The notes beneath the pieces were generated by a model, which did no database searches, had not been told where the DNA came from, and was given only the letters and a program-made list of their open reading frames with translations. This document shows positions 44,592-45,026 of a stretch of 64,000 nt of DNA, piece by piece. Position numbers and translations under genes: made by a program. Within the stretch, counting starts at the first letter, position 1; every line of letters begins with the position of its first letter. Source of the stretch: Gammaproteobacteria bacterium (GTDB lineage Bacteria; Pseudomonadota; Gammaproteobacteria; Nitrosococcales; Methylophagaceae); contig JARGFJ010000008.1 of NCBI GenBank assembly GCA_029210875.1, positions 1 through 64,000 of the forward strand, written 5' to 3'.

Positions 44592-45026
44592 ATGTCTATT
44601 TCTACAAACAAAACAACAATTGCTTTAGCTGCAAGTGCAGCATTAACAGCTGGTCTAGCTCTTTCGCCAATAATTGTAAGTGCAGAAACTAATCCATTTG
44701 CATCAACAGAACTATCAAGTGGCTATATGCAACTTGCTGAAGGTGAAAAAGCAAAAGAAGGTAAGTGTGGCGAAGCTAAGTGTGGCGCTGACAAAGAAGG
44801 TGCAAAAGCAGCAGACGGTGAAAAAGCCAAAGAAGGCAAATGTGGTGAAGCTAAGTGTGGCGCTGACAAAGAAGGTGCAAAAGCAGCAGACGGTGAAAAA
44901 GCCAAAGAAGGCAAATGTGGTGAAGCTAAGTGTGGCGCTGACAAAGAAGGTGCAAAAGCAGCAGACGGTGAAAAAGCCAAAGAAGGTAAATGTGGTGAAG
45001 CTAAATGTGGTGCTGATAAAAAATAA
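44592..45026 (+). CDS. Secreted Cys/Lys-rich tandem-repeat peptide (HvfA-like precursor)
   Basis: A 144-aa low-complexity protein. A Sec signal peptide (1-31, cleavage after IIVSA) and a short spacer are followed by four tandem repeats of 25 residues (51-75, 76-100, 101-125, and a truncated 126-144). Each contains EGKCGEAKCGADK. The eight cysteines (59, 64, 84, 89, 109, 114, 134, 139) occur in C-x4-C pairs; there is no His or Trp. The EGKCG motif is that of HvfA-type precursors, whose cysteines are modified by DUF692/DUF2063 enzymes to bind copper. Those enzymes are not encoded nearby. It is divergent from the ECF sigma/anti-sigma pair and followed by DoxX and MsrPQ. SD is AAGGA. Function is inferred: metal binding or oxidant scavenging in the periplasm. 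Confidence 0.82.
   Translation: MSISTNKTTIALAASAALTAGLALSPIIVSAETNPFASTELSSGYMQLAEGEKAKEGKCGEAKCGADKEGAKAADGEKAKEGKCGEAKCGADKEGAKAADGEKAKEGKCGEAKCGADKEGAKAADGEKAKEGKCGEAKCGADKK
44742..45023 (+). repeat. Tandem 75-bp direct repeats inside the peptide gene
   Basis: Units: 44742-44816, 44817-44891, 44892-44966 and a partial 44967-45023. Units 2 and 3 are identical over all 75 bases. Unit 1 differs from them at four positions, all synonymous. The identity implies recent duplication or gene conversion, and makes repeat number prone to change. Confidence 0.95.

Follow-up and report, generated by a model that had tools for sequence, protein, structure and literature searches.

Repeat peptide and analysed genomes

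The window analysed here, a DNA stretch of 64,000 nucleotides, contains a small gene built largely of almost identical 75-bp units. This raises the questions of what the encoded peptide is, whether its number of units changes between species, and which enzymes would act on it. We analyzed the gene, its neighbours and its counterparts in a genus sample of 29 Methylophaga-like genomes, one per species, in which G000 is the genome of the window.

The product matched the KCGExKCG repeat model NF050137 with 70.4 bits (cut-off 19.5). By contrast, it reached only 50.5 bits with the full-length HvfA equivalog model NF050188, under the cut-off of 95, and no Pfam family matched it. The product is classed, by the repeat model, as a member of the HvfA family rather than as an HvfA equivalog. 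A hydrophobic, signal-peptide-like N-terminus (about residues 1-31) is followed by the conserved segment NPFASTELSSGYMQLAEG and then by the repeat array. AlphaFold gave no confident fold for this protein (mean pLDDT 42; 10 sequences) and did not reproduce the beta-helix of repeats that has been published for such peptides.

As presented in Table 1, hvfA is followed by hvfX, msrP and msrQ, and a sigma/anti-sigma gene pair lies upstream in the divergent orientation. The original prediction had listed units 1 to 3 correctly, but had missed the peptide family, the fourth unit and the unlinked enzymes described below.

Table 1. Features of the hvfA locus, in positions of the window
Feature	Start	End	Strand	Description
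Anti-sigma factor	43619	43873	-	H-x3-C-x2-C motif (read from sequence); NF052368 48.5 bits, cut-off 50
ECF sigma factor	43873	44490	-	Divergent from hvfA; Sigma70_r2 and r4_2
ECF-type promoter-like element	44497	44523	+	TGTAACA-N16-GTCT, upstream of hvfA; putative promoter
hvfA	44592	45026	+	144-aa HvfA-family EGKCG metallophore precursor (captophorin, formerly oxazolin)
Unit 1	44742	44816	+	GEKAKEGKCGEAKCGADKEGAKAAD; 4 synonymous differences from unit 2
Unit 2	44817	44891	+	Identical to unit 3
Unit 3	44892	44966	+	Identical to unit 2
Unit 4	44967	45023	+	Partial, 57 bp; 5 differences from unit 3
hvfX	45110	45694	+	DoxX-type maturation/membrane protein; NF050144 230 bits, cut-off 80
msrP	45688	46656	+	Periplasmic methionine-sulfoxide reductase catalytic subunit; NF003767 461 bits, cut-off 207
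msrQ	46657	47280	+	Haem-binding membrane subunit; NF003831 176 bits, cut-off 130

Structure of the repeat array

The array (44742-45023) consists of four in-frame units of 75 bp, or 25 residues, the fourth of which stops at 57 bp. Tandem Repeats Finder (TRF) reported it with a period of 75, 3.7 copies, 96% matches and a score of 502, the top of five rows for the window. It had been claimed that units 2 and 3 are identical and that unit 1 departs from them only by four synonymous changes, and the alignment confirmed both statements: units 2 and 3 agreed at 75 of 75 bases, and unit 1 was set apart by 4 bases and no amino acid. One of the differences in unit 4 alters the protein, by a single residue at the C-terminus. 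Each unit brings one C-G-E-A-K-C (C-x4-C) pair, which gives four pairs and 8 Cys in HvfA, in agreement with the earlier proposal that the number of units sets the number of pairs. For a fixed protein and codon frequencies taken from five window ORFs, about 12 of 25 codons should differ between two units, and the probability that all codons agree was 1.7e-8. Chance or codon bias was ruled out on this value as the origin of the identical units.

We consider it very improbable that a collapsed or duplicated repeat in the assembly has produced the identical units. Units 1 and 4 are distinct from one another and from units 2 and 3, so that at least three units are real, and like arrays were present in 21 of the 29 genomes. 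These observations have to be set against the longest exact run at a lag of 75, which covers 140 bases (44772-44911) and could lead a short-read assembly to miscount identical units, and against the contigs that break at or near hvfA in G006, G011, G015 and G027, as expected if such arrays are hard to assemble.

Evolution of the array in the genus

An HvfA match to NF050137 was detected in 21 of the 29 genomes. The comparison covered 26 hvfA copies: besides one from each of the 21 genomes, it included a sub-threshold copy from G018, two from named Methylophaga records (L044 and L080), and a second copy from G005 (L015) and from G013 (L021), each in tandem with the first. The number of cysteines per copy ranged from 2, in G017 and in the second copy of G013, to 14 in G024. 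The best TRF periods across species were 15, 36, 45, 48, 51, 57, 63, 66, 72, 75, 78, 99, 108 and 120 bp, two of the 26 copies giving no TRF row, and the linkers varied in length and sequence between species. Since the arrays differ in length, period and linkers, repeat number evolves between species; a variable number of EGKCG motifs has already been published. The original prediction had opposed this to a constant array among relatives, and such constancy is ruled out in the genus by the same differences.

We then compared the 36-nt core EGKCGEAKCGA(D/N), which 17 of the 26 copies contain. Core distances averaged 0.093 within copies (63 pairs) compared to 0.130 between copies (1018 pairs), and none of 2000 label shuffles gave a within-copy distance as low. 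This likeness of units within a copy shows concerted or lineage-specific change, by either duplication or conversion. It also fits the earlier view that units arise by duplication or conversion with the protein kept. For the word "recent" in that view the support is weak, units 2 and 3 differing at 0 of 15.7 synonymous sites. G011, the nearest relative with an assembled hvfA, has three units and one GAKAAD linker, compared to four units and three linkers in the window. The synonymous divergence between G000 and G011 was 0.39 for hvfX, 0.19 for dppD and 0.09 for hvfB, and the probability of zero differences between units as old as this split was 0.002, 0.05 and 0.25, respectively. Dating the duplication by synonymous sites was set aside, the sites being too few to decide; a recent duplication of units 2 and 3 is plausible.

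The repeats might also be a low-complexity spacer whose length varies without selection, an explanation in line with linkers whose length and sequence are free to vary between species. However, the KCG motifs and the EGKCGE.KCG core are retained while synonymous sites change, and we regard neutrality as quite improbable.

Separate location of hvfB and hvfC

The hvfBC genes were absent beside hvfA, both in the window and in the genus search. The sole MNIO of G000 is located on another contig (C44:7392-8180) and was identified as HvfB by NF003818 (450.6 bits, cut-off 360), with HvfC adjoining it (NF050145, 301.8 bits, cut-off 142). Around them lie a rhodanese gene, the gene of a 249-residue protein and a KDPG aldolase gene. 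The 249-residue protein (L147 6511-7260), encoded between the rhodanese gene and hvfB, begins with a signal-peptide-like segment, matches no Pfam family and is kept in part of the genus. A single HvfA locus, the present one, was found in G000.

The separation extends to the rest of the genus. An MNIO was detected in 28 of the 29 genomes, and hvfA and the MNIO were on different contigs in all 21 genomes with an HvfA match, the enzyme genes having a conserved neighbourhood of their own. Likewise, hvfB was in the stretch covered at none of the 13 named genus loci (L033 starts just before hvfX), and at 16 of 42 loci from outside the genus. A second MNIO class, viewed at three loci (L088, L094 and L096), adjoins Cys-rich precursors of the CHGHNDCK type, which form tandem pairs in L088 and L094; a precursor from L088, the sole one tested, matches BufA2. 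Because this class stands beside its own Cys-rich precursor at these three loci, it need not compete for hvfA.

A promoter-like element common to hvfA and hvfB

A TGTAACA-N16-GTC sequence precedes the hvfA start by about 87-105 bp in all 21 genomes with an HvfA match. The same sequence lies upstream of hvfB, about 60 bp from the start and 83-89 bp from the G-x-GLGLRR motif. In the 27 genomes with the hvfB start on a contig, TGTAACA-N16-GTCW was exact upstream of hvfB in 26, G019 being one base off (GTCC); these genomes are related, so that the 26 of 27 do not count as 27 independent events. Across 20 aligned hvfB upstream regions, the putative -35 block TGTAACA, an inner T, an inner A, GTC and the following A were invariant, and the columns 12 to 3 bases before the element held no more than 0.4 bits. 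The putative -10 part is unlike between the loci, with GTCTA at hvfA and mostly GTCAT at hvfB. The presence of one conserved element at both genes points to a single system in two loci.

A scan of the 29 genomes with TGTAACA-N16-GTCW gave 132 matches, compared to 57 for the reversed control. Read from their coordinates, 23 were at hvfA loci (the 21 above, G023 and a contig-end site in G027), 26 at hvfB, about 20 in sigma coding sequence and 63 elsewhere. The matches in sigma coding sequence (C-N-I-L-x-I-S-x-S) were not counted as promoters, and the 63 remaining matches, set against the 57 of the control, give little sign of further members. One element lies upstream of a DUF3179 gene in G000 (C77:2175-2201, L157), a possible further member, and sites like it occur in G010:C10 and G022:C42.

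The two-locus reading has to be weighed against the secretion of HvfA in an unmodified form, in which the Cys pairs themselves would bind metal or buffer thiols and HvfBC would modify something else. This could explain a precursor unlinked from its enzymes, as well as the retention of HvfB in G023, which has lost hvfX and has a degenerate hvfA. In addition, PMC12452194 describes stand-alone precursors, for which HvfB/HvfC in the same cluster are not strictly required, and leaves unlinked bufferin precursors either modified by enzymes of another locus or unmodified. We nevertheless consider this explanation improbable: no other known precursor was found beside hvfB in G000, the upstream element is conserved and common to hvfA and hvfB, and EGKCG is the known substrate motif of HvfBC-type enzymes (PMC12668002 and PMC12538549).

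Candidate sigma factors

The element was not accompanied everywhere by an intact cognate sigma gene. In G011 (C63, L148 9508-9805), an internal deletion joins sigma residues 1-36 to anti-sigma residues 20-84, so that only the first 36-38 residues of the local sigma are left, and its next best homologue is 30% identical. In G023 (C3, L159), hvfA lacks the neighbouring sigma, anti-sigma and hvfX genes, msrPQ remain, and HvfA has only 3 Cys. Both genomes keep the element at both loci, suggesting either recent sigma losses or another factor that uses the element. On this evidence, the element may be read by a further factor besides the local sigma, or by a different one altogether. In G018 (C4, L139), sigma, anti-sigma and hvfX have frameshifts or stops, by decay or assembly error, and hvfA and msrP are open.

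The link between the two loci could accordingly be right and the controlling sigma another one, with the neighbouring sigma incidental or redundant. Besides the element retained in G011 and G023, a paralogous ECF sigma of G000 (C4:9000-9575, L165), 47% identical, paired with an anti-sigma gene of its own and adjacent to a weak DoxX-like gene, would be a candidate for this role. We hold this to be unlikely, although it deserves more weight than the other alternatives considered here. The local sigma gene is divergent beside hvfA in most genus loci, no close sigma paralogue able to take over was found in G011 or G023, and outside the genus a sigma/anti-sigma pair lies directly upstream of a contiguous, complete hvfABCX cluster at L054, L068, L074 and L085.

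A proposed system in two loci

Overall, these results make it likely that the repeats form the core of an HvfA-type precursor and that hvfA and hvfBC constitute a split system joined by a shared ECF-type promoter. Locus one would comprise the sigma/anti-sigma pair with hvfA-hvfX-msrPQ and locus two hvfBC. HvfB, an iron enzyme, would act with its partner HvfC to convert the Lys-Cys-Gly sites of the array, in C-x4-C pairs, into thiooxazole ligands of Cu(I), and the modified HvfA, once exported, would serve as a copper buffer in the periplasm. The same envelope response to copper or oxidant stress may involve HvfX and MsrPQ, a repair enzyme. Duplication, loss or conversion of units in frame would change the length of the array and the number of ligand sites.

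A more detailed version, which we judge to have an even chance of being right, describes a captophorin system acting in trans. In this version, hvfA-hvfX-msrPQ would be served by a dedicated HvfBC encoded elsewhere, one ECF promoter code would take the place of linkage, a fast-evolving cassette array would set the copper capacity of each species, and the array would decay after the loss of sigma and HvfX (G018 and G023).

The peptide family and its repeat variation were already known, and the arrangement in two loci tied by a conserved promoter-like element may be new. No such split system was recognised in the mostly open-access literature covered on Methylophaga oxazolin, bufferin or DUF692 and on MNIO with a separate locus or ECF factor. 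Genome surveys of metallophores take the modifying enzyme and the genes around it as their starting point, which can make a precursor at another site appear to be an orphan. A conserved promoter-like element would provide a means of pairing unlinked precursors with enzymes by sequence alone, and the natural range of array lengths within one genus offers natural variants for the question of ligand-pair capacity in an environmental methylotroph.

Comparison with known systems

The locus resembles the HvfA/oxazolin-captophorin precursors (Haemophilus HvfA, FonA and gonophorin) in its repeated EGKCG, in an HvfX/DoxX gene within the operon and in a signal-peptide-like N-terminus. It differs from them in that its units are 25 residues long and combine an EGKCGEAKCG pair with a GAKAAD linker, and in having hvfBC outside the cluster. 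Thiooxazoles and copper binding are reported in PMC12668002, where a two-repeat substrate was modified and a one-repeat substrate was not. In PMC12538549, modification of the Microbulbifer precursors, which have 5-8 Cys depending on the strain, is proportional to the number of cassettes, MmrA with 1, 2 and 3 cassettes losing 8, 16 and 24 H. The two-Cys cassettes, whose number sets the number of modifications, are the point of likeness with MmrABC. By contrast, mmrA, B and C are clustered there, whereas precursor and enzymes are separate here and the genus ranges from 2 to 14 Cys.

Regulation of such genes by an ECF sigma factor has precedents. Caulobacter sigma-F, whose motif is GTAACC-N16-CGAA, has three unlinked transcription units under its control, with DUF692/DUF2063/DoxX operons and YedY (MsrP) among their genes (PMC3511200). 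One ECF sigma over unlinked units would be common to both systems, but the DUF2282 precursors of Caulobacter adjoin their enzymes, whereas the EGKCG precursor lies apart from the only HvfB here and MsrPQ is encoded downstream of hvfX. According to PMC7907618, Haemophilus RpoE2/HrsE, an ECF sigma paired with a small anti-sigma, controls a DoxX/HvfABC-type cluster together with methionine-sulfoxide reductases in the presence of hypochlorite. In that system the doxX cluster is intact and the reductases are MsrAB/MtsZ, in contrast to the divided genes and the MsrPQ of the present locus.
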